In this document: piece after piece, positions 6,117-60,401 of the stretch | Layout of the letters: each line of letters starts with the position of its first letter | Numbering within the stretch: position 1 is the first letter of the stretch | Assembly (NCBI GenBank): GCA_002716625.1 | Contig: PBAS01000063.1 | Coordinates: forward strand, 1 to 64,000 | Source: Phycisphaeraceae bacterium | Lineage (GTDB): Bacteria > Planctomycetota > Phycisphaerae > Phycisphaerales > Phycisphaeraceae | Length of the DNA: 64,000 bases | Direction: 5' to 3' | Translations under genes and position numbers: made by a program | The notes under the pieces: generated by a model | What the model was told of the DNA's origin: nothing | What the model saw: the letters and a program-made list of their open reading frames with translations, nothing else | The model's database searches: none

Positions 6117-7607
6117 ATGAAAGTGACAAATACCATGAACACCAATTCGTCCTCTTCCCATCCACCCAATCGTAAGTACCTGTTCCTTACCATGGAACAA
6201 GTACAACAAAGCCATAATGTGGTCCAGCGTGTATGCGAAGCAACCAAACACCCCATGAACCCCTTGCTGCCGCTTGGTCGTGCCGATGAATGGGACGGGC
6301 GCCAAGCCAGTCCATGGGCAATGAGAACAGTCCTTTACGATGAGGAGGAAAAGCTATTTAAATGCTGGTACAACGGAACTGACCTTACCGACCAGCAATC
6401 TTGGGCGAGCGGCTATGCGGTGAGCAGCGATGGAATCCACTGGACCAAGCCACATCTTGGCCTAATCGAATACAACGGTTCAAAAGATAACAATATTGTC
6501 TTTGCTGGGTGGGGTTCTGTCCTCAAGGATGATCATGAACCTAATGAGTCGCGTCGTTACAAAGCCATGTTGATGGGGCCGGTTCCAAAAAATGACTATG
6601 GAATCCGGCTCGCCTATTCGCCCGATGGAATTCATTGGCATGAACAAGAACCATTTAAAATCCCTGACTGGCGCGGCCGAAATCCTGATATTGTCGCATT
6701 CATTAAAGATGAACAAGAATCAAACCCAGACCGACGCTTTAAATTAATCTGGCAGGACACTCATCCATCCAAGAAACCAGGGCCAGACGCCGTACGGATC
6801 AAGTCCATTGCCTTCTCACCCGATGGTCAACATTTTACCGGAAGTACCGACAATCCAATTATTGACCCCAATGATGGTCCTGAGGTGGAAAATCATTTTG
6901 TGATGGTCGCACCATATGAAGGCTATTGGGTCATGCCATATGAAGCGGCATGGTATACACCCAACGGCTTAGGTCTTTATGGACAGTATATGGGTGATGT
7001 CCGGCTGGCGGTCAGCACCGATGGTGAGCACTTTACTCGTGTTAATCCATTTGAAATATTAATTCGACGTGGATCCCATGGACAATGGGATGACTGCTTC
7101 CTTGTCGCAAGTGACAAACCGATCGTCAAAGGAAATACCATTTACCTGTTCTATTGCGGCCAGGGACAGGATTGGAGCTATTGGCCCGCACAAAATATCT
7201 CACCCAATGCGGAGACTGCAGGTGTCGGCTCCAGATGCATGTCACGCATGGGACTTGCCACACTTCCGTTGGATCGCTGGACATGCGTAGAAACGCAAGA
7301 TCGAGAAATTCCCGGAACTTTGACGACCAACCCGATTGAGATCATGGATCCGAATATTGAGCTTTTCCTGAATGTCTCATCCCTACATCAGAACTCCAGT
7401 TTCGTCCGTGTTGAGGTCCTAGATGGTACCTCTGGACAAGTGATTGAAGGATTTGATCGACATAGCTGTGAACGAATCGAACAGGATGCAATTCGTTGCC
7501 ATGTACGATGGAAAGGCAAGACCTTGTCAAACTTGCGATGTGGCAGGTATCAATTTTGCATCGAATTATGTGGTGCAGCTCGGATACATAGTTATAGTCT
7601 TTCATAG
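6117..7607 (+). CDS. Five-bladed beta-propeller glycosidase-like protein (GH32/43/68-like fold)
   Basis: A 496-residue protein with repeated blade motifs of the form SxDGxHW/F: AVSSDGIHWTKP, AYSPDGIHWHEQE, AFSPDGQHFTG and AVSTDGEHFTRV. These are typical of planctomycete and Verrucomicrobia proteins resembling the N-terminal domain of GH32 and GH43 enzymes. A likely acidic early position is in LLPLGRADEWDGRQA, and RRYKAMLMG marks the third strand group. The last ~90 residues form a separate beta domain. No signal peptide is obvious, so it may act in the cytoplasm. AAGG lies 5 bases before the ATG, and a 10-base palindrome AGTAGCTACT (6094-6103) sits just upstream. Catalytic function on a sugar substrate is inferred from fold only. 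Confidence 0.6.
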   Translation: MKVTNTMNTNSSSSHPPNRKYLFLTMEQVQQSHNVVQRVCEATKHPMNPLLPLGRADEWDGRQASPWAMRTVLYDEEEKLFKCWYNGTDLTDQQSWASGYAVSSDGIHWTKPHLGLIEYNGSKDNNIVFAGWGSVLKDDHEPNESRRYKAMLMGPVPKNDYGIRLAYSPDGIHWHEQEPFKIPDWRGRNPDIVAFIKDEQESNPDRRFKLIWQDTHPSKKPGPDAVRIKSIAFSPDGQHFTGSTDNPIIDPNDGPEVENHFVMVAPYEGYWVMPYEAAWYTPNGLGLYGQYMGDVRLAVSTDGEHFTRVNPFEILIRRGSHGQWDDCFLVASDKPIVKGNTIYLFYCGQGQDWSYWPAQNISPNAETAGVGSRCMSRMGLATLPLDRWTCVETQDREIPGTLTTNPIEIMDPNIELFLNVSSLHQNSSFVRVEVLDGTSGQVIEGFDRHSCERIEQDAIRCHVRWKGKTLSNLRCGRYQFCIELCGAARIHSYSLS

Positions 7608-7868
7608 ACTGCATCTGCAATTGACGGTATCAGCCATAACAAGAGCTTTTAGGTTTTTGCTCCACCATCAACTACCAATAGCCTAGTTAGGTCGTGCCAA
7701 GTCTAAACACCCAACAATATCAATATCCACTTATCTGTAACAACCTGCTGCATAAACACTACAGGATTGAATTGATGATCAACCCTTACCACTAGAAAAT
7801 TTTTTGCATACAACCCATTGAGTTTGGGCTACGATGTCCAATACCTCCTCACACCAATTCGCCGATCG

Positions 7869-10800
7869 ATGAGCCCCATGGCCAAACTAGCCCCAACAAC
7901 TATCAACATCGACACCACTGATTTCTCATGCCATAGGTACCGATGGTTATTCATTGTTGCCATCCTGTTAATTGGCATGCTTGGCCTTCTTGTAGCATCT
8001 GCCTCAACCTTGGTTAGTACGGATCTTGGCACAAAAATCGCACTTGGCCTGGTAAACCACCATATTGTTGGCACCTGGGAAATCGAGGATCTCGATTTGA
8101 CATGGTCCTCGGGACAACATGCTGAAGGGATCAGGCTGCTAGCTCCTACAGGAGTTGAAGCCATGCGAATCGGTAGACTTGAAGCGCCGGAGTTATCCCT
8201 TTGGTCACTATTCTGGGGCAATAGAAACGTCGGAACGGTTCAAATATCCCATGCCTTTACACGGATGGACGAAACCCTTACTGCACTTGCACCCACCGGA
8301 CCCATACCGTCAACCGACACCAGGGTAACCGGGGGCGGAGCGAGCGGAACACTCCGGGGAAAACTTGAAATCGCTAGTTCAAATTTATCTATTGCCTCCA
8401 CCGATGGTTCAGATATAAACATCAAGATCGAATCTGGGCATATCGCGGCAATGGATCCAGGCCAGGTCACACTATCGATGAATGCAGAAATCATCCAACG
8501 TGATCGAATATCCTCCAGCACCATTGATCTTGAAATTAAAAATCTATTCAACAGTGATGGTAACTTCCAGTTGCACGCAATTGAGGTCGACGGTAAAGGC
8601 GAACTTCTAGATGTTCCGGTTTTACTGATCGATCGGTTACTTAAGAAAGATGGATTGCTGGAAGAACTCTTGGGTGAAAAAATAGATTTAAAGGTAAAGG
8701 CTACAGGGAATCGCAACCAACTCAATACAAAGGTATCAATCCACAGCAATAACTTTGATGTGAACGTACAACTCAAAGGCCACAATGGACAATTGGCCGT
8801 CATAAAACCAATGACTATGCAATTACGAATCGACCCCGCCACATGGTCAACTTTAATCAAACGACACGAGGCCTTTGCCCATACAAGGTTGGTTTCGCCC
8901 CTTGAATTAGATGGCAGCATAAACAAGTTACAGATCCAGTTTACCAATGAATCAGTTGGACTGGCGAAAATGGCCTTCAATGCCCATGTCTCCCTTGGCG
9001 ACATCAGGATTGATACCGGAAGCACCCATGGCGTTCTCCGCCTAATTGATGCCCAGACCTCAATAGATGCTCAAGTCCTTGGTGATAAGGTTCACGCCGT
9101 GTTTACTGGAATTGCTGAGCATAACACTCATCGTTCACCGATCGAACTGACCTTAACTGCTCAACACGCAATTCACCCAGACCATGGTCTTAACTTGAAC
9201 GGTGTGGCTATCATCGCCCACGCCGCCGTAACCGGTCTACCCGTAGACCATCTCGGGGAGTTGACGTCGGATCTTTATGGATCGCTCTGTTCCAATACTC
9301 TTGGCGCCAACATGGATACGCAAATCACCGCGCAACGTCATGGGCATAACATCCGTTTTAAGATCGCCAACTCCTCTGCCCATCACCAATCAGAATTTAC
9401 CGGAACTGTTGATGCGAACACATCACAGCTAACGATCCATTCCGGTCAAGCCAACTTGGCTATTACCCCTGATCGATTGGAAAATGTGATTAAACATGCC
9501 AACAGGTCCAAGTCATTGCCTCGCATCATCCAGACATTTTCACTATCTGCCCCGCTGTATGCCAGATTGAGCATTAAGGGGCTAACTGCTCCCATCCGAC
9601 CATTTAAATGGGAGCGTATTGCGGGCACGGCATCTATCACACTTGATGAAATCAAGCCAGTAGGACTTTTGAAATTTAAGGATTTGTCTCTGTCTCAATT
9701 CGTCGTCACCGCCAGTACTCCTAACTTACATGACCGATTGAACCTAACCGCCAGCACTAAGTTCGCACACGAAGACAGGACAGGTGACCTACAACTGCAT
9801 ACTAAAGCTATCGATTGGACCCAAGGAGGCCGGGTTATCAAGACAGATATCACGGGCAATTACATCCCGGTGGGCCTGATTGAACAATGGATTTCCGAAC
9901 CAAACCAACTGAAATGGTTGACTGGTCCGCATATTGAATCAAGTTCATTGTCATTTCAATATGCTCCAGCACGCCACAACCCACTCTTGTTCAATACCAG
10001 AATCCGAACGGCCTCCAGGCAGATGATCCAACTTGATGGCCATTACCAAAATAACCACGGGATAACTCTAGATGAATCATCACATGGTGAACTAGAGATT
10101 AGCCCTCAGATCTATACTGAATTTGCCAACCGACAGAATTCGGATTCCACTATTTCAACACAGTTCAAAATAAAGGAACCTGTCACATTCCATGTGGATG
10201 TCAAGAAAGCGGATATCGGCTTAACACAAAATAACGCCTCCTCTCAAGAGAGGAACTGGAAGTTCAATCCAGATCAAACTTCTTTTGATGTAACTGTAGG
10301 CCTACACAATACAGCCGCCGTTACACCCAAGACTTTCAGGGATCACGATCTGAAAGTGCACAAGCTAATGGTTCATGCTTCGACAACAAATCTTCGTGAA
10401 AACATGAAGGTTGATCTTTCGGGACTTATTGATCTTTCAGATCAGAACGCCAACAAGATTGAAACCAGCCTGCTTCGTTCACAAACCAACCTTTGGAACC
10501 TTTTCGATTCTTCTGGCCATTGGAATTCAACTGGTTTTCGAGCCAAGACCAATACCCAACTCTCTAATACACCCACGGCGGTGATTGACAGCCTTCTTGA
10601 AAAGGAGGGCAAAGTGATGGCCTTGCTTGGACCAATCGTAGATATTGAGGCGAAAGGGACTTTCCCTGGAAACCTCAATCTATGGGTTAAAAGCGACACG
10701 ATTGATCTACCATTGCCCCTGTCAATTGACCGCAACCAACGGATTACACTCCACAATAATATCCGCGCATCACTCTCGCTTACCGAAAAAGGCACCAAGG

Positions 10801-11519
10801 CACTCTTGGGGCATCTGCACCCGATCTTTGGAGACGCCATAGCCTCACACAAACCCATTCGCCTTTTGGTCAAAAAGCAGCCGTTCACGATACCACTAAA
10901 AAAATTCCGCAATCATCTTGATCAGTTGATGTTGGATATGACACTTGAACTAGGCACATTACGCATGACGCGTAAGGGTTGGCTGACAGAATTTATTGAT
11001 GGGGTGGTTGGGGTTGCCCTCCAACTTTCTGGATCCTTACAACAACGTACTGCCGCCAAAAACCAGACCTACTTGGCACACTTTACACCTGTACATATAC
11101 ATGTGGAAAAGGGTCGGTTGAAGATATCTGAATTCTGGCTGGTCAGTGAGGACCTGGCGATTGGATTTCAAGGTCAGGCTGATCTCATATCACAACAGTA
11201 CCAATCAGGCATGGGGATCCTTGGAGCCTCGCTGCTCACAGAGCAACCAGCACTTATAGAGATTGTCGATCCTAGAAATGTCTATGACATTCCTATGACC
11301 GGGAAACTGGGTGAAAGACCAAATATCACAACCAGTGACTTAGAACTTGCATTATTTGGTTCCACAGCCAAACAGCAATTACGTCGACTTGGAAAGGATT
11401 TTCAGGTTGGATTCGAGTTGCTGGGTAAAGTGTTCCAAGAGGACATGCGTCGCAAATCAAATCTCAACTGGCACGTTCCCACAGAAGGTAAGAAACTCAT
11501 CGGCAAGGTCCTTAAATAA
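7869..11519 (+). CDS. Large AsmA/TamB-like inner-membrane-anchored protein
   Basis: About 1216 residues with one N-terminal transmembrane helix (about 26-45) and a very long, beta-rich, low-cysteine region expected in the periplasm. The opening after the helix (repeated D-L-x-W, GIRLLAP, IGRLEAPELSLWSL) resembles the start of AsmA-like proteins, which form hydrophobic-groove bridges for lipid traffic between membranes. The C-terminus contains FWLVSEDLAIGFQGQADLIS, like AsmA C-terminal repeats. The open frame extends to a TTG at 7818; ATG codons at 7869 and 7878 are better start candidates. It lies near mlaF-mlaD, consistent with an envelope lipid role. I do not recognise the exact subfamily. 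Confidence 0.55.
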   Translation: MSPMAKLAPTTINIDTTDFSCHRYRWLFIVAILLIGMLGLLVASASTLVSTDLGTKIALGLVNHHIVGTWEIEDLDLTWSSGQHAEGIRLLAPTGVEAMRIGRLEAPELSLWSLFWGNRNVGTVQISHAFTRMDETLTALAPTGPIPSTDTRVTGGGASGTLRGKLEIASSNLSIASTDGSDINIKIESGHIAAMDPGQVTLSMNAEIIQRDRISSSTIDLEIKNLFNSDGNFQLHAIEVDGKGELLDVPVLLIDRLLKKDGLLEELLGEKIDLKVKATGNRNQLNTKVSIHSNNFDVNVQLKGHNGQLAVIKPMTMQLRIDPATWSTLIKRHEAFAHTRLVSPLELDGSINKLQIQFTNESVGLAKMAFNAHVSLGDIRIDTGSTHGVLRLIDAQTSIDAQVLGDKVHAVFTGIAEHNTHRSPIELTLTAQHAIHPDHGLNLNGVAIIAHAAVTGLPVDHLGELTSDLYGSLCSNTLGANMDTQITAQRHGHNIRFKIANSSAHHQSEFTGTVDANTSQLTIHSGQANLAITPDRLENVIKHANRSKSLPRIIQTFSLSAPLYARLSIKGLTAPIRPFKWERIAGTASITLDEIKPVGLLKFKDLSLSQFVVTASTPNLHDRLNLTASTKFAHEDRTGDLQLHTKAIDWTQGGRVIKTDITGNYIPVGLIEQWISEPNQLKWLTGPHIESSSLSFQYAPARHNPLLFNTRIRTASRQMIQLDGHYQNNHGITLDESSHGELEISPQIYTEFANRQNSDSTISTQFKIKEPVTFHVDVKKADIGLTQNNASSQERNWKFNPDQTSFDVTVGLHNTAAVTPKTFRDHDLKVHKLMVHASTTNLRENMKVDLSGLIDLSDQNANKIETSLLRSQTNLWNLFDSSGHWNSTGFRAKTNTQLSNTPTAVIDSLLEKEGKVMALLGPIVDIEAKGTFPGNLNLWVKSDTIDLPLPLSIDRNQRITLHNNIRASLSLTEKGTKALLGHLHPIFGDAIASHKPIRLLVKKQPFTIPLKKFRNHLDQLMLDMTLELGTLRMTRKGWLTEFIDGVVGVALQLSGSLQQRTAAKNQTYLAHFTPVHIHVEKGRLKISEFWLVSEDLAIGFQGQADLISQQYQSGMGILGASLLTEQPALIEIVDPRNVYDIPMTGKLGERPNITTSDLELALFGSTAKQQLRRLGKDFQVGFELLGKVFQEDMRRKSNLNWHVPTEGKKLIGKVLK

Positions 11520-11631
11520 CAACCCACTGCCATTGGAGATAAATATTTCCTCATGATCGCGGCAAGACCAAATGAAGAAATCAAGGGACAACGGAACAGG
11601 AGAGCCAAGAAAACATTTACGATGTCGGGGG

Positions 11632-12579
11632 CTATACAAGAAAATGTCGAACACAATCGATACCGAATATAGGCACCAGAACAAGTAATAGCAGCAATAC
11701 AAAAGCAGGCATTGGTTCGATCTCGAATTTCTTGGAACCAATCAACCAAAAGATCGTACTAATCACGAACGCACGTATACCCCAATTAATATAATTTGCA
11801 TCAAAACCTGCATTTGTCATCGTCAGAGCGCTTTGGATACAAACGCTGAGGCCCATGATGATCAGCGCCAAACCAGTCATTTTAAGAATCGCCTTGCCCA
11901 TCACCCCTAAACCCGCATGCAGCAGCCTAACCGCAAGAAAATAGCACGGCACCATAAACGCGAACTGGACAATAACTTGCAACCCCATCCATTTCAATCT
12001 TTCCCCAGTGGCCACATCCGCTTGAGCCCGAGGCGCAAGTACCAGGAGGTCAACCAATATGAGCATGACCCCAAATGCAATAAGCACGATGGGAAGTTGA
12101 AGATCAATTTTTTTCTGTTCTCGCTGAGATTCATCCTCTTTCTGGCGGGCATTGAGAGGAATCCCTGCAATCGGACGGCCCGCACCCGACGGATTTTGGT
12201 CCGTCTCAACTTTAATCTGCTTGCCTTCATTGAAGTTAAAACCACACTGAATACATATCAGTGCTTCGGGGGAAATTTCGGCGCTACATGAAGGACACTT
12301 GCCAGTATTTTTAACTGCCGCTTGACTGACAACTGCTCCGACTTGCGCCGAAGCGTCAAAGTCCAGTTCATAACTGGATCCACTGCGTTCAGAAGGATCA
12401 AGTTGCAAGGTGTCCTTTGCGGGACTTGGCCTGATCAACTTGGCTGATGCTGCAGGTTCCGATGGAACACGGATGACTGCTTCGCATTGAGGACATTTGA
12501 CCTTTCGGCCAGCATATTTCTTTCCCCAACGAAACTGTTTATCACAGGATGGGCACAAAAAGGATGATGCTTTGGCCAT
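11632..12579 (-). CDS. Zinc-ribbon multi-pass membrane protein of unknown function
   Basis: About 315 residues. The N-terminus has a zinc ribbon CPSCDKQFRWGKKYAGRKVKCPQC, the planctomycete-style MJ0042-like CxxC pair, and a second ribbon CPSCSAEISPEALICIQC follows near residue 95. A hydrophilic linker leads to about five transmembrane helices: LPIVLIAFGVMLILVDLLVL, the WMGLQVIVQFAFMVPCYFLA region, KILKMTGLALIIMGLSVCI, RAFVISTIFWLIG and a C-terminal leucine-rich helix. The start is set at the second Met because GAGG lies 8 bases upstream; the frame opens 9 codons earlier. It converges on the AsmA-like gene. Function unknown. Confidence 0.6.
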   Translation of the reverse strand: MAKASSFLCPSCDKQFRWGKKYAGRKVKCPQCEAVIRVPSEPAASAKLIRPSPAKDTLQLDPSERSGSSYELDFDASAQVGAVVSQAAVKNTGKCPSCSAEISPEALICIQCGFNFNEGKQIKVETDQNPSGAGRPIAGIPLNARQKEDESQREQKKIDLQLPIVLIAFGVMLILVDLLVLAPRAQADVATGERLKWMGLQVIVQFAFMVPCYFLAVRLLHAGLGVMGKAILKMTGLALIIMGLSVCIQSALTMTNAGFDANYINWGIRAFVISTIFWLIGSKKFEIEPMPAFVLLLLLVLVPIFGIDCVRHFLV

Positions 12580-12987
12580 ACAGATCGCCTCACTAAGCAC
12601 AAACAAACCAAAATATTAATCACCATAAACTAGCTGTAAATTCATATATTAGCAATGAGTGTGGGTTATACACTTCAGATAGATTCCAACATCTATCCCA
12701 CGAACAAGATCGTTGCCATTCAACAGAATAATAGTTAGATTCCGTGCTAGGATCGCGAGCACATGGTTCATGGTTTCAAGAATTTCCAAGGAACCCAATG
12801 AGCAAGCAGGTAAAATAATCATGACTCCCTAAAACTCACTGCCACTAGATAGAAATTATTAAGAAAGACGAATAGTTAACAACACAACAAGTACAGTCCT
12901 CTACAACATTTCTTGGCACCCCAATTACATGCCCAAACAAAATCGATGCCTCCTATTTGAAATATACCCCAGCACATAGAAAGGATC
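12580..12987. other. Non-coding interval between divergent genes
   Basis: AT-rich divergent upstream region for the zinc-ribbon gene and mlaF. A 7-bp hairpin GATAGAT (12678-12684) / ATCTATC (12691-12697) with flanking GTGGG/CCCAC is visible, without a T-run. No ORF or RNA gene is recognisable. Promoters for both genes presumably lie here but no convincing -35/-10 pair was found. Confidence 0.5.
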
Positions 12988-13833
12988 TTGTTAAAAGATC
13001 GCTCACCGGTGACAGAATCCAACTCTATAAAACAACCTGCCCAGAAAGATGTCGGCCGCCCTAATCCAATCATCCAGCTGGCAAATATCTCCAAAGCATT
13101 TGGCTCGAATCAAGTCCTCAATAATGTTTCACTTGAAATTGAACGCGGACATACGACGGTCATCATCGGGCCCAGCGGTACCGGTAAAAGTGTACTGCTT
13201 AAACATATTGTGGGCGTGATTAGACCCGATCAGGGGAAGGTATGGTTCGATGGGAGGCGTATTGATCATCAAAGCGAGGCGGATCTGGTCACGGTGCGCA
13301 CCAAGATTGGATTCTTATTTCAGATGGGTGCATTATTCGACTCTCTGACCATTGGTCAGAATATCAGATTCCCACTCACCGAACACACCAGCATGTCTGC
13401 TTCGCAGCAAAACCAACGCTGCAACGCTGTCTTGGAAATGGTGGGGTTGGCTGGTATTGAGAATAAAATGCCCGCTGATCTATCCGGTGGCCAACGTAAA
13501 CGCGTGGCATTGGCACGAGCAATTGTTCTTGAACCACAAGTCGTACTATATGATGAACCGACGACCGGATTGGATCCGATTCGAGCCGATGTGATCAATG
13601 AGTTGATTATCAGCCTGTCCGAACGCCTGGGTATTACCAGCATCGTCGTCACACATGATATGGCCAGCACGAACAAAATTGCCGACCGAATTGTGATGCT
13701 CTACGATGGACGAATAGTGGCTGATGGTAACCTAGACACCTTTACCCACTGCGATAATGATCTGGTACAGCGATTCATCAAGGGGCAAGCCGAACAATCT
13801 GACTTGGAACGGATCCGTGTCGTTTCGCAGTAA
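12988..13833 (+). CDS. mlaF: ABC transporter ATPase, MlaF-like
   Basis: A 281-residue ATP-binding subunit of a Mla/Ttg2-type phospholipid transporter. It has Walker A GPSGTGKS at 61-68, the MlaF-typical Q-loop FQMGALFDSLTIGQNIRFPL at 111-130, signature LSGGQRKRVALARA from 165, Walker B VVLYDEPTTGLDP at 185-197, and the H-loop in SIVVTHDM. A TTG start is supported by AAAGGA immediately upstream. It is followed 8 bases later by mlaD, clearly an operon. The permease MlaE, normally adjacent, is missing from the window. The complex moves lipids between inner and outer membrane; the direction is not deducible here. Confidence 0.88.
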   Translation: MLKDRSPVTESNSIKQPAQKDVGRPNPIIQLANISKAFGSNQVLNNVSLEIERGHTTVIIGPSGTGKSVLLKHIVGVIRPDQGKVWFDGRRIDHQSEADLVTVRTKIGFLFQMGALFDSLTIGQNIRFPLTEHTSMSASQQNQRCNAVLEMVGLAGIENKMPADLSGGQRKRVALARAIVLEPQVVLYDEPTTGLDPIRADVINELIISLSERLGITSIVVTHDMASTNKIADRIVMLYDGRIVADGNLDTFTHCDNDLVQRFIKGQAEQSDLERIRVVSQ

Positions 13834-55146: not shown

Positions 55147-55560
55147 TTACATTGGCTGATCGTTGTAGTTCTCAGGATGGTGGGCTAGATTGATTACACC
55201 ATTAATGGGTCGCAGCCGACCATCAAGTGCCAGTTCACCGGCAAAAAGAAATTGCTTATGTCGCTGGGTCTGAATTACTTGCCCAGCCAAAAGCAACCCG
55301 ACCGCAATAGATAGATCGAAATTAGGACCTTCCTTGCGGATATTTGCTGGTGCCAGATTCACCAGCATGCGTGTCATGGGAAAGGGATATCCCGAATTTA
55401 TGATTGCCGACCGCACACGCTCGATCAACTCTTTAATCGCCATATCAGGCAATCCAACAATTGTCGTCTTGGTCAAACCGCGGTCCGTCACATCAATTTC
55501 AACCTCACAGGGTATTGACTCTATCCCCTCAAGCACAAAACTATGCACTTGGGCAAGCAT
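55147..55560 (-). CDS. Stand-alone N-terminal domain of a ComM/YifB Mg-chelatase-like protein
   Basis: 137 residues matching only the first domain of ComM/YifB (normally ~500 residues with an AAA+ ATPase). LAQVHSFVLEGIESIPCEVE, TTIVGLPDMAIKELIERV, LVNLAPANIRKEGPNFDLSI and FAGELALDGRLRPINGV are all intact; then the frame ends after NYNDQPM with no ATPase downstream in any frame. It may be a remnant of a truncated gene or a genuine single-domain protein. The ATG has no clear Shine-Dalgarno. It lies upstream of cbpA on the same strand, with about 170 bases between. Confidence 0.75.
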   Translation of the reverse strand: MLAQVHSFVLEGIESIPCEVEIDVTDRGLTKTTIVGLPDMAIKELIERVRSAIINSGYPFPMTRMLVNLAPANIRKEGPNFDLSIAVGLLLAGQVIQTQRHKQFLFAGELALDGRLRPINGVINLAHHPENYNDQPM

Positions 55561-55946: not shown

Positions 55947-57104
55947 CTAAAGATTCAGATTGTATTCGGGCAGATAAATGAAATATTTGAGAGTTAATAG
56001 CCACCGTAGCGCCATTTTAAGCGGTAACATCGCCATGATGACCAAATGAAACGCCATCACATAGAAACGGAAAGTTCCCAGTTGCATGCACATTTTGCGC
56101 ATCACCGTCCGTGCGAGCAGTGGAGGTAGGATAAAAACCCAAGCAGCAGTAAAAACAATACCCGAGATCTCACGAATGAAGGGATTCTTTGGTAACGCGT
56201 AACTCCAACCAAAGCCAAGCAAATCTTTTGGATTCCAAAAGTAGTCGCTCATCATGACGTTAGTTAATGGTACTTGCATATTGGCATCCCAATAGGCAAA
56301 TGGGCCGAAGAAGTTCCAATTGGGACCACGTAAAAACACACCAAAAACAATCAACACAACCCAAAGAATCAGAAATCCAAACAACCAGACTGAGATTGCA
56401 AAGGGTCGTTCACGGAAAGTATAGTAGCCATTGCCCTTCGGATTAGTATCAAAATAAGGCATGGCAATCAGTCCGGTGATGATCATCACTGGCAAGATCA
56501 CACCCGCCATCCATGGATCGAAATAAACCAACATCTCCTGCAAACCCAAGAAATACCAGGGGGCCTTGGAGGGATTGGGCGGTCCGGCGGGGTTTGCAGG
56601 ACTTTCCAGCGGTGCTGGCAATACGACGGCCCAAATGACCAAAACAGCTGACGCCAAAACTAGGCAGATCAATTCCGTATAAACCAGATCCGGCCAGACA
56701 AGCACTTTGTCGTCCCGCTCCTCGTCAACCAACGGCTTACCCGCTTCTAACCGAACATCATTCCGTGCTGCCTGGCGAAAAGCTGTCCACAGAAAAATCC
56801 CGCAGCCCAGGAGCATAATCGTGATTGGAACATTGTCGGCTTTCTTGAGAATCTCGTAGTAATTGTAATCAACCAGCATCGCCCCAAAATAGACTACCAC
56901 GAAGACCACTAATAATGTCAATGCGATGACTGGCTTGGTCCATTTTTTGTATGTAAGCAATAGGACGATAAATAGCAGCACAATAAACGGCAGACTGAAC
57001 TCCGGTGGGCTCCAATTGTTGACAAATTGCTTGACCCCCTCGAGTTGTGGCAACTCAACGAATGGATCACGACCAGCAGCTAGTAGAAAAGGGTTGGAGA
57101 ACAT
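55947..57104 (-). CDS. Cytochrome b C-terminal-half subunit (subunit IV-like) of a bc complex
   Basis: 385 residues, about twice the size of b6f subunit IV. Two or three transmembrane helices and a cytoplasmic loop (about 20-140: FSLPFIVLLFIVLLLTYKK, then PVIALTLLVVFVVVYFGAM) precede the conserved part. That part starts WPDLVYTELICLVLASAVLV and continues PSKAPWYFLGLQEMLVYFDP, GLIAMPYFDTNPKGNGYYTF. The quinol-oxidation-site PEWY motif is APWY here, lacking the glutamate. Further helices follow to the C-terminus. No CxxCH heme-c site is seen. It lies 42 bases after the N-half gene and is the last gene of the cluster. Confidence 0.85.
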   Translation of the reverse strand: MFSNPFLLAAGRDPFVELPQLEGVKQFVNNWSPPEFSLPFIVLLFIVLLLTYKKWTKPVIALTLLVVFVVVYFGAMLVDYNYYEILKKADNVPITIMLLGCGIFLWTAFRQAARNDVRLEAGKPLVDEERDDKVLVWPDLVYTELICLVLASAVLVIWAVVLPAPLESPANPAGPPNPSKAPWYFLGLQEMLVYFDPWMAGVILPVMIITGLIAMPYFDTNPKGNGYYTFRERPFAISVWLFGFLILWVVLIVFGVFLRGPNWNFFGPFAYWDANMQVPLTNVMMSDYFWNPKDLLGFGWSYALPKNPFIREISGIVFTAAWVFILPPLLARTVMRKMCMQLGTFRFYVMAFHLVIMAMLPLKMALRWLLTLKYFIYLPEYNLNL

Positions 57105-57146: not shown

Positions 57147-57929
57147 TTACATTGGACCACTAATACCACCGTCCTTACGAATCCGCCAAAAATGAATGGC
57201 AATCAATACCCCGGCGACCACGGGCAGCGCAATACAGTGCAGCACATAGAAACGCATGAGCGCTGGCGCACCCACCTTCGTACCGGCAAGTAACAGAAAT
57301 GCGGCATCTGATTTGGTGGTGACCATGGGCACACCTTCACGAAACGCCAACACGTCGCTAAAGGGGCCCTGCATACCAAAAACCGGGGTGGCTTTACCCA
57401 TGTTTGACCCAACAGTAATCGCCCAGATCGCCAATTGGTCCCACGGCAGAAGATAGCCTGTAAATGATAAAAGCATTGTGAGAACCAACAGAATCACACC
57501 AACACCCCAGTTAAACTCGCGTGGTGGTTTATACGAACCGGTCAGGAATACTCGCATCATATGCAGCCAGATTGAAATGATCATTGCATGAGCACCCCAA
57601 CGATGAATCTCTCGCAATACACCAAGTGTCACATGAGCTCGCAAACCCTGTATGTCCGCATAGGCATATTCAATAACCGGCCGGTAATAGAACATCAATA
57701 AGATACCGCTAATGGTTTCAGCGAGAAACAGAAAGAATGTTAGGCCACCCATACACCAGGTGAATGAAAGCCGAATACCACTTTTTCGCACTGCCACCGG
57801 ATGTAAATGCAAAAACACATTCGACATGACTGCCATGACGCGTGTGCGTCGGTCACGTGGAATGCCGTGGCGGAAAATAGAACTCCACACCTGCGTGGAG
57901 CGAATATAATTCAATGCTGTGGTCAGCAT
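57147..57929 (-). CDS. Cytochrome b N-terminal-half subunit (b6-type)
   Basis: 260 residues, close to cytochrome b6. Four transmembrane helices carry two bis-His heme sites: His109 (REIHRWGAHA) with His231 (YVLHCIALP), and His123 (IWLHMMRVF) with His246 (IAIHFWRI). The 14- and 15-residue spacings match b6. LPWDQLAIWA and GSYKPPREFNW are b6-like. Cys59 in SFTWCMGGLTFF aligns with the cytochrome b6 cysteine that binds heme c_n. A ~45-residue N-terminal cytoplasmic segment precedes helix A. It belongs to a quinol:cytochrome c oxidoreductase with the ferredoxin-Rieske protein upstream and the C-half downstream. Confidence 0.93.
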   Translation of the reverse strand: MLTTALNYIRSTQVWSSIFRHGIPRDRRTRVMAVMSNVFLHLHPVAVRKSGIRLSFTWCMGGLTFFLFLAETISGILLMFYYRPVIEYAYADIQGLRAHVTLGVLREIHRWGAHAMIISIWLHMMRVFLTGSYKPPREFNWGVGVILLVLTMLLSFTGYLLPWDQLAIWAITVGSNMGKATPVFGMQGPFSDVLAFREGVPMVTTKSDAAFLLLAGTKVGAPALMRFYVLHCIALPVVAGVLIAIHFWRIRKDGGISGPM

Positions 57930-58044: not shown

Positions 58045-59094
58045 TCAGACCTCGATAAAAGACTCAGGCGAGGACCACTGACCAAGCTCTTGGCGGTATT
58101 TCTTGGACTTATCTACCACTACAAACTCGCCACTGAAGTAGATCTTGTGCCGTTCAAGCGGCCTGGGTGCCGGACCCTCAAAGTTCATCCCCTTGGCATC
58201 AAAACCTGAGCCATGGCAGGGGCATTTGAACTTTTGATCACCTGGCAGCCAATTGGGAATACAGCCAAGATGGGTACAGGTCGTGCTTATTGCAACCAGT
58301 TTTCCTTCGGCCAACCGGGCCAACCACACACCCTGGCTTCCCTTGTACTGCATATAAACTCCAACTTCCGGATAATCGGTGACCCGGCCAGCGCGAAAAA
58401 TACTTGGCGGCTCCTTAGTTACCTTGGGAACCATAAATGACTGGAGAGCTCCCAGGCATGTTGCAAACACACCCCCCAATGCTCCCCATGCAGCCAGCAC
58501 CACCACACTCACACCTCCGAGGACACTAACTTCACGACGCGTTACACCCTCACCCTGTACACGAATACGTTCAGCCACACTTGTTCCTGGGCGCACATAA
58601 CCGCTACCCACCATGGCCGCAGCTGACGCATCCGGCGGCGCATTGAGCGGCAATGCTTCGGCAACTGCTTCAACTGGAACAGTAGCCGTTCGTTCAGCCG
58701 GCAGATCGCTTCTGCCACGATGGCTGATCTGGGCTGCAGTCAACAAGCTGGCCCACTTTGGATCAGGTGGCCCCTGAGGAATCGTAACCGCTGGACCTGC
58801 AGTCAGACCAGCACCTGCAGTTGTAGCCGCCTCTTCCTCTTGACCCGCCCATGGTTCTGGGCCGTCAACTTGAACCGTTTCAAACTTAATGACGTCCACC
58901 GGACAACCTTCGGCCGCCACCTTGATCGACGGTGTCAGTGGCTTAGTAAAATCCTCACTATGCGCATCGGGGCGGATAATACAGGTCTCTTCCTGCACCT
59001 CAAAAACGTCGGGACAGTCAGTTTCACACGCATCGCATACGATGCAACCCGGTGCAATCCAGACTTTGACGACTTCTTCGTGAGTTTCTGCCAT
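58045..59094 (-). CDS. Ferredoxin-Rieske fusion subunit of the bc complex
   Basis: About 349 residues in three parts. (1) Residues 1-75: a monocluster [4Fe-4S] ferredoxin, with Cys17, 20, 23 in PGCIVCDACETDCPDVF and Cys64 in AAEGCPVDVIKF; Cys27 is extra, as in Thermotoga-type ferredoxins. (2) An Ala/Pro-rich linker to about 180, a twin-arginine R186-R187 (VTRREVSVLGG) and one transmembrane helix (about 188-217). (3) The Rieske domain: CTHLGC (ligands Cys273, His275) and CPCHGSGF (ligands Cys291, His294), with disulfide Cys278-Cys293. Rieske topology puts the ferredoxin in the cytoplasm and the Rieske head outside. The ATG at 59094 is preferred over a TTG two codons earlier. Confidence 0.9.
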   Translation of the reverse strand: MAETHEEVVKVWIAPGCIVCDACETDCPDVFEVQEETCIIRPDAHSEDFTKPLTPSIKVAAEGCPVDVIKFETVQVDGPEPWAGQEEEAATTAGAGLTAGPAVTIPQGPPDPKWASLLTAAQISHRGRSDLPAERTATVPVEAVAEALPLNAPPDASAAAMVGSGYVRPGTSVAERIRVQGEGVTRREVSVLGGVSVVVLAAWGALGGVFATCLGALQSFMVPKVTKEPPSIFRAGRVTDYPEVGVYMQYKGSQGVWLARLAEGKLVAISTTCTHLGCIPNWLPGDQKFKCPCHGSGFDAKGMNFEGPAPRPLERHKIYFSGEFVVVDKSKKYRQELGQWSSPESFIEV

Positions 59095-59193: not shown

Positions 59194-60279
59194 CTATCTG
59201 CCCTCATTGCCGCCCTCCCCGGATATTGTGCCTGTACCAGACGGCTCCGTGCCTTTAGCATCGACCGTAGAATCCTCACGGTCCAAAAGAAGGTTCCGTG
59301 CCGTTGCACGTAAAAGTTTATTTGGTTCACTATCGGCAATCTGCCGGATCCTCTCCCAAACCAACTCATTAGACATAGGCCTGGCGTGGGCGAGCGTGGA
59401 CAAGATCACCCGATCTTGTTCTGCCGTCGACATAAACTTGCCTGGAGATTTATAGTCTGATGGGAGTTCAAGAAGAGACTTTCGACTTAAAAGCAGTTCA
59501 CTGACCAACTGGCTACCCCGCTGATCGCCGAGTTTGGCAAGTGCCACTGCAGAGTTCCAGACTGTTTCTCGGTATGCCGCATTCGTATTATCCATCGCTT
59601 GCCGAAGAACTTTCACCACCTCTACATCCTCCGGCTTGGCAACGAGTCCAAGGGTCAAAGCCGCCACCCCACTAATCTGTGGATTCTCGTCGACCAGCAG
59701 GTTAGTCAGTGCACCAAGTCCCCGTCGTGAGAATTCCCGATCATGATCAGGCCAGTGGCGTAAAGCTTGTGCCACCCCAAGACGTACTCGAACATAAGAA
59801 GATCCGGCATGGCTCAATATGGCATCTAGATCTGGTCGCTGACCGAGTTGCCCCAGTGCTAAAATCAAAAACTGATGAACCTTCCCACTTTCACCCGGAT
59901 CAACCTGATTAAGAACCCGAACCAGATCTTTGCTAATATCAGCCCGCATCTTCAAATCATCAACCGATGGGATCATCGTCGCTAAGGTGTACGCAGCCCA
60001 CCAACGATCTTTTGACACCCCGCCACTGCGTTCAAGGATCGCCAGCTGACTTGCAATTGTTTGGCGTCCACTCACCACCTTCGCAAACAGGGAACCAAGT
60101 CCAATAGCAATCACTACGATCGCCGCTGGAATAATCACCAACTGGGCGATTTCTCGAACTCGTGATGGTTCGGTAGTCACCGTTCCGTCGTCCGATGCCA
60201 AACCAACATTCACCCCCTGATGATCAGTCCCATTGGGATCAACAGGGGCAGAAGACGGTGGTAAATCATCGGTCATCAT
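59194..60279 (-). CDS. Membrane-anchored HEAT-repeat protein at the head of the bc cluster
   Basis: About 361 residues. A ~40-residue acidic, disordered start is followed by one transmembrane helix (LVIIPAAIVVIAIGLGSLFA) and then HEAT-like helical repeats (VHQFLILALGQLGQRPDLDA, ENPQISGVAALTLGLVAKPE, RETVWNSAVALAKLGD, NKLLRATARNLLLDRE), ending in a Gly/Ser/Glu tail. The ATG at 60279 has GAGG 6 bases upstream. It lies 99 bases before the ferredoxin-Rieske gene on the same strand, so it probably belongs to the bc complex operon as an accessory or assembly subunit (inference). Confidence 0.75.
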   Translation of the reverse strand: MMTDDLPPSSAPVDPNGTDHQGVNVGLASDDGTVTTEPSRVREIAQLVIIPAAIVVIAIGLGSLFAKVVSGRQTIASQLAILERSGGVSKDRWWAAYTLATMIPSVDDLKMRADISKDLVRVLNQVDPGESGKVHQFLILALGQLGQRPDLDAILSHAGSSYVRVRLGVAQALRHWPDHDREFSRRGLGALTNLLVDENPQISGVAALTLGLVAKPEDVEVVKVLRQAMDNTNAAYRETVWNSAVALAKLGDQRGSQLVSELLLSRKSLLELPSDYKSPGKFMSTAEQDRVILSTLAHARPMSNELVWERIRQIADSEPNKLLRATARNLLLDREDSTVDAKGTEPSGTGTISGEGGNEGR

Positions 60280-60401
60280 TAGAATCCTCACATCAATCCA
60301 TTAAATCGTGCCGTCTATTCAAGTGTAAATTCTCCGCCATAGCAATCAGGCGATTAACTGGGGCTCGGTCCTCCCAGGCTTCACCTAGATCCCCCCTGAA
60401 A

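Follow-up and report, generated by a model that had tools for sequence, protein, structure and literature searches.

Rieske subunits of bc complexes carry their N-terminus on the n side of the membrane, and export of the Rieske head by the Tat system leaves the part ahead of the signal anchor in the cytoplasm. For the b6f complex, the flow of electrons from ferredoxin to quinone through haem c_N has been disputed for decades, because ferredoxin docks there only transiently; this haem has been postulated as the entry point for electrons from ferredoxin/FNR in cyclic flow (PMC9342900). The nearest characterised relatives of the complex analysed here are those encoded by Kustd1480-1485 and Kuste4569-4574 of the anammox bacterium Kuenenia stuttgartiensis (PMC12954380), in whose operons an n-side NAD(P) oxidoreductase accompanies a short, unfused Rieske protein. 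Monocluster [4Fe-4S] ferredoxins, such as those of Pyrococcus furiosus (2z8q), Thermotoga (1vjw), Bacillus thermoproteolyticus (1iqz) and Desulfovibrio gigas (1fxd), are free soluble carriers. Here we describe a locus of a Phycisphaeraceae bacterium in which a ferredoxin domain of this kind and a Rieske head belong to one polypeptide. The locus lies in a 64,000-nucleotide stretch of contig PBAS01000063.1 (assembly GCA_002716625.1), hereafter the window.

Four genes follow one another on the minus strand of the window: one for a HEAT-repeat protein with a single predicted membrane segment (59194..60291), the ferredoxin-Rieske gene (58045..59094; 349 aa), and the genes for a b6-like cytochrome b (57147..57929; 260 aa) and an enlarged subunit IV-like protein (55947..57104; 385 aa). 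The ferredoxin-Rieske gene is a single, frameshift-free reading frame of 349 codons, from the ATG at 59094 to the stop at 58045-58047. Its N-terminal ferredoxin domain (residues 1-80; 58855..59094) contains the ligand set CxxCxxC...CP of a monocluster [4Fe-4S] ferredoxin, formed by C17 (59044-59046), C20 (59035-59037), C23 (59026-59028) and C64 (58903-58905), together with a fifth cysteine, Cys38 (58981-58983). A flexible linker (residues 81-185; 58540..58854) leads to the twin arginines R186-R187 and a transmembrane helix (residues 186-221; 58432..58539), followed by the Rieske [2Fe-2S] head with its boxes CTHLGC and CPCHG (residues 230-349; 58048..58407). The earlier note had read the Cys17/20/23/64 motif, the twin-Arg helix and the Rieske box as parts of one frame, and the open reading frame, Pfam, the alignment and the AF2 model all agree with that reading.

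Pfam placed the Rieske domain (PF00355) at residues 250-314 (E 2.5e-10) and Fer4_13 (PF13370) at residues 17-70 (E 7e-5), the latter with 23.9 bits against a gathering score of 24.5. In the AF2 model, pLDDT was 91-97 for the ferredoxin domain, mostly 39-79 for the linker and about 89-97 for the Rieske head, and residues 186-221 formed the long helix. The best relative of the Rieske head in the PDB was the anammox protein Kustd1480 (9rk3; Foldseek TM 0.95, E 8e-40). When the ferredoxin domain was searched alone, the top matches were monocluster [4Fe-4S] ferredoxins with probability 1.00 and TM 0.57-0.69 by query, although, for such a very short chain, the best E was only 4e-3. The domain therefore resembles the free ferredoxins in ligands, size and fold, and differs from them in being tethered to the membrane and in having the additional invariant Cys38.

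A cytoplasmic position of the ferredoxin would follow from Rieske/Tat topology. The opposite arrangement, in which the N-terminus is exported and the ferredoxin acts on the p side near the Rieske head and the multihaem cytochrome c, appears very improbable: nothing specific speaks for it, no signal sequence was found ahead of the ferredoxin domain in the protein, the twin arginines stand before the sole predicted membrane helix, and the N-termini of bc-complex Rieske proteins are generally known to stay on the n side.

We aligned 37 distinct full-length fusions, all from Phycisphaerae. C17, C20, C23, C38, C64 and Arg187 were invariant and Arg186 was kept in at least 90%, whereas the motif-like Cys27 was replaced by Ser or Ala in many of the proteins. 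Pairwise identity, averaged over all 37 proteins, and pN/pS, calculated from own-family pairs, were 67% and 0.18 for the ferredoxin domain, 62% and 0.28 for the Rieske head, 33% and 0.48 for the linker, and 40% and 0.49 for the transmembrane helix region. With the lowest pN/pS and the highest identity, the ferredoxin is thus the most constrained domain of the protein. The source genome is fragmented (83 contigs, 88% complete), which might suggest that a frameshift or an assembly error had joined two genes, one of the outcomes the earlier note had named as fatal to its proposal. There is practically no chance of this, as the fusion recurs under purifying selection in many independent assemblies and in eight GTDB families, which also rules out a chance origin. 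At the sequence level, the fusion, its conservation and the selection acting on it are established.

The other subunits resemble chloroplast and cyanobacterial b6f in the split of cytochrome b into two adjacent genes, in the haem c_N cysteine and in the n-side path from ferredoxin to quinone proposed for b6f (PMC9342900). By alignment, Cys59 of the window's cytochrome b (codon 57753-57755) corresponds to b6 Cys35, which binds haem c_N, and Glu144 of the subunit IV-like protein (codon 56673-56675) occupies the position of Phe40 of b6f subunit IV. The cysteine was present in 35/35 fused lineages, and every subunit IV read had glutamate at the site of the c_N ligand. Such a Glu is the mark of a haem c_N of low potential; in the anammox models, too, this haem has a Glu ligand (PMC12954380). 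The comparison with b6f drawn in the earlier note holds, and is strengthened by the cysteine, by the glutamate and by the separate ferredoxin gene of the family f103 discussed below. A strict coupling between the ferredoxin and the c_N cysteine was rejected: two ferredoxin-bearing f103 genomes (L105, L107) have Gly at this position, and most ferredoxin-less complexes keep the Cys. In L107 (genome G691, 7280-9238), which has this Gly, cytochrome b and subunit IV are fused into one 653-aa frame. The ligands of the two b haems (H109, H123, H231 and H246) are kept in the window's cytochrome b, and H41 and H43 are invariant. The anammox study proposes a further b haem whose ligand is a histidine close to the N-terminus of cytochrome b (PMC12954380); H41 and H43 lie in a similar place, a likeness of location rather than of direct alignment with the Kuenenia protein.

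Where b6f has cytochrome f and binds ferredoxin/FNR transiently, complexes of the window type have a covalent ferredoxin and, in relatives, a multihaem cytochrome c instead. The window's gene cluster contains no cytochrome c gene of any kind, and thus none for cytochrome f; many relatives have a multihaem c gene after subunit IV, and an octahaem cytochrome c, missing at the window locus, is encoded in operons of the families f95, f100, f104 and f106. The idea that the ferredoxin replaced a lost octahaem cytochrome was rejected, as these four families have both and the window genome retains a multihaem homologue beside its aa3 oxidase. With the anammox complexes, the window complex shares the Rieske head, the b6-like cytochrome b, the enlarged subunit IV and the Glu at the c_N position, and most of its relatives also share the multihaem cytochrome c. 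In contrast to the anammox operons, the ferredoxin-type operons read carry the ferredoxin on the Rieske protein, and neither the window cluster nor the annotated operons L101, L111, L112 and L115 showed a gene for an n-side NAD(P) oxidoreductase. Within the same phylum, the operon of L138, which we take from its gene order to be of the anammox type, encodes a Rieske protein, cytochrome b, an FAD/NAD oxidoreductase bearing Fer4 clusters, a subunit IV and an octahaem cytochrome c. The phylum thus combines one core with two n-side redox modules, the ferredoxin in Phycisphaerae and the NAD(P) oxidoreductase in the anammox-type L138.

Two neighbouring genes deserve mention. The HEAT-repeat gene lies close upstream of the ferredoxin-Rieske gene even in family f93 (L185, L186, L187), where the cytochrome b/subunit IV gene pair is no longer nearby, and its product is possibly an unrecognised accessory or assembly factor. 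At 55147-55560 of the window, a 137-aa open reading frame is similar by eye to the N-terminal region of YifB/ComM-type Mg-chelatase-like proteins; it looks truncated and is possibly a remnant.

The earlier note had suggested searching genomes for the pairing of Fer4 and Rieske domains. We did so within Planctomycetota, screening 294 genomes from across the phylum, 397 from the class and 51 from the own family, and found fusions in eight GTDB families of Phycisphaerae, namely f1, f93, f95, f98, f100, f103 (one genome), f104 and f106. Full-length fusions were present in 12/51 own-family genomes. For the thirty nearest homologues of the cytochrome b, every accompanying Rieske gene was a fusion wherever the flank reached it, and in 3/3 genomes of f93 the cytochrome b/subunit IV pair was isolated, with the fusion located elsewhere in the genome. 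Complexes that lack the ferredoxin also occur within Phycisphaerae, in f107 and in genus g306 of f104. Among 40 loci from other classes of Planctomycetota, neither the Rieske protein nor neighbouring open reading frames matched a ferredoxin profile. In a cytochrome b tree, 38/39 ferredoxin-less rows split from the ferredoxin-bearing rows (support 96/99, bootstrap unsettled), while the remaining one, the long-branch L146, was placed within the f103 group. The Rieske N-terminus bears different and unrelated extensions in the other classes: L026 has paired CxxC motifs and L019 repeats, and the extensions seen in L026, L019 and L034 also include duplicated short domains or Ala-rich repeats. As these extensions vary so widely between lineages, the planctomycete Rieske N-terminus looks like a hot spot of domain gain.

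Family f103 provides a natural control. In four of its genomes (L102, L103, L104, L107), the Rieske protein is unfused, and subunit IV is immediately followed, in the same orientation, by a separate small gene for a ferredoxin of this type (e.g. MAKTVTKVWVDTDNCTSCEACV...). The ferredoxin of L103 scored 42.3 bits with Fer4_13 and 40.3 bits with Fer4_15, clearing both gathering scores, and L105 has a fusion with a far shorter linker plus the start of a separate ferredoxin gene, whose remainder is masked in the sequence. A domain that is fused in one lineage and encoded by an adjacent gene in a sister lineage is a classic mark of functional association. Since the sister lineage keeps a separate, related ferredoxin beside subunit IV, the ferredoxin belongs with the Rieske/cytochrome b complex.

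Alternatively, the ferredoxin might stand outside the electron path. It could sense redox state or oxygen, help in assembly, or offer cytosolic partners, the HEAT-repeat protein included, a place to dock, tuning the complex like an n-side subunit of the PetP type. Its long leash would suit such a role, as would Cys38, which is present in all 37 fused domains and missing from the separate ferredoxins of L103 and L107, the constantly adjoining HEAT-repeat gene, and the differently built N-termini of other planctomycete Rieske proteins (the paired CxxC of L026 and the repeats of L019). However, all four cluster ligands are invariant across the eight families and the separate operon ferredoxin resembles an ordinary electron-carrier ferredoxin, so that we regard a role outside electron transfer as unlikely.

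The gene content of the hosts bears on the direction of electron flow. The source genome encodes complex I with NuoEF, an NAD-linked formate-dehydrogenase-like pair and, besides KorAB, another 2-oxoacid:ferredoxin oxidoreductase homologue; at 88% completeness, neither a 2-oxoglutarate dehydrogenase E1 nor RnfC was detected in it. Directly before the genes of its aa3-type oxidase operon (L177, contig C71 of genome G000), positions 7950-13403 encode a 1817-aa multihaem cytochrome c that is homologous to the octahaem subunit found in other planctomycete complexes. Because the two usual partners of the multihaem cytochrome are split between the window and contig C71, a linked complex III-IV chain is suggested. 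Across the class, KorA was found in 53/58 genomes of the ferredoxin type, defined by cytochrome b similarity with the ferredoxin itself read in most of them, against 86/339 others, and 2-oxoglutarate dehydrogenase in 8/58 against 157/339; among KorA-positive genomes, the dehydrogenase was present in 6/53 and 56/86, respectively. These are raw counts that ignore kinship. They indicate that most hosts use a ferredoxin-reducing 2-oxoglutarate oxidoreductase, so that reduced ferredoxin tends to arise in their central metabolism, and hence favour ferredoxin as the donor; on the other hand, KorA was present in all sampled own-family genomes, whether or not they have the complex. A genetic linkage between the fusion and KorAB, which lie 7-10 kb apart in three f93 genomes, was discarded as weak, since these belong to one genus and unrelated genes intervene.

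Taken together, these observations lead us to propose that an n-side [4Fe-4S] ferredoxin module was added to the Rieske subunit of a planctomycete Rieske/cytochrome b complex of the b6f type, which has haem c_N. The N-terminal ferredoxin would fold and remain in the cytoplasm on its flexible leash while the Rieske head is exported by Tat to the p side, and the leash would let it reach the n side of cytochrome b. The cytosolic ferredoxin pool, fed by the 2-oxoacid:ferredoxin oxidoreductases of the host, would give electrons to this domain, which would pass them on through haem c_N/Qn and so reduce menaquinone at the n side. Oxidation of the resulting quinol at the p side would follow in a normal Q cycle, from Rieske to the multihaem cytochrome c and the aa3 oxidase. 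We infer menaquinone as the quinone, docking of the ferredoxin near haem c_N, the electron transfer itself and its net direction, and we hold flow from ferredoxin to menaquinone, the likelier direction, with moderate confidence. In its favour we count the 37 fusions with their invariant ligands, the constraint that is tightest on the ferredoxin, the separate ferredoxin gene of f103, the c_N Cys/Glu pair, KorAB and the aa3 oxidase behind a multihaem cytochrome c. Against it stand L105 and L107, which bear the ferredoxin without the c_N cysteine, the presence of KorA in all sampled own-family genomes, co-occurrence counts that ignore kinship, and the complex I of the host, a proton-pumping route for electrons that go first to NADH. 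The closest studied complexes, those of anammox bacteria, are moreover proposed to run outward, from quinol to NAD(P)+ (PMC12954380).

If the direction were reversed, the ferredoxin would be the electron exit: quinol would be bifurcated on the p side; Rieske would hand one electron to a high-potential acceptor, and b_P, b_N and c_N would carry the second to the ferredoxin, reducing it much as the anammox complexes are proposed to reduce NAD(P)+. Kustd1480, the closest solved Rieske protein, has a measured potential of +335 mV, which was argued to allow a very low-potential b branch (PMC12954380), and L138 of the same phylum has an NAD(P) oxidoreductase-like subunit in its operon. The anammox scheme is itself still a proposal, though, and because NAD(P)H is generally a weaker reductant than ferredoxin, the uphill step would exceed the one proposed there; the hosts, furthermore, already reduce ferredoxin through 2-oxoacid oxidoreductases. 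We regard the reverse direction as unlikely, although it is the chief rival of our proposal.

No paper on a ferredoxin-Rieske fusion was recognised from the titles and abstracts of the open-access literature, to which our search was confined. Covalent attachment of a ferredoxin to a haem c_N complex is a variant upon a known kind of Rieske/cytochrome b complex. It is about as likely as not that this is a respiratory complex, widespread in the class, with a hard-wired ferredoxin port: an n-side [4Fe-4S] domain and a p-side Rieske head on one polypeptide, coupling ferredoxin and quinol, in either direction, in non-photosynthetic bacteria. The tethered ferredoxin and its natural variants, fused, encoded by a separate gene, ferredoxin-less or Cys-less, make the question of entry through haem c_N directly testable. 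The Rieske/cytochrome b complexes of Planctomycetota have acquired differing n-side redox modules, a ferredoxin here and an NAD(P) oxidoreductase in anammox bacteria. If the proposed flow to menaquinone is true, bacteria with ferredoxin-linked 2-oxoacid oxidation would gain a respiratory outlet for ferredoxin.
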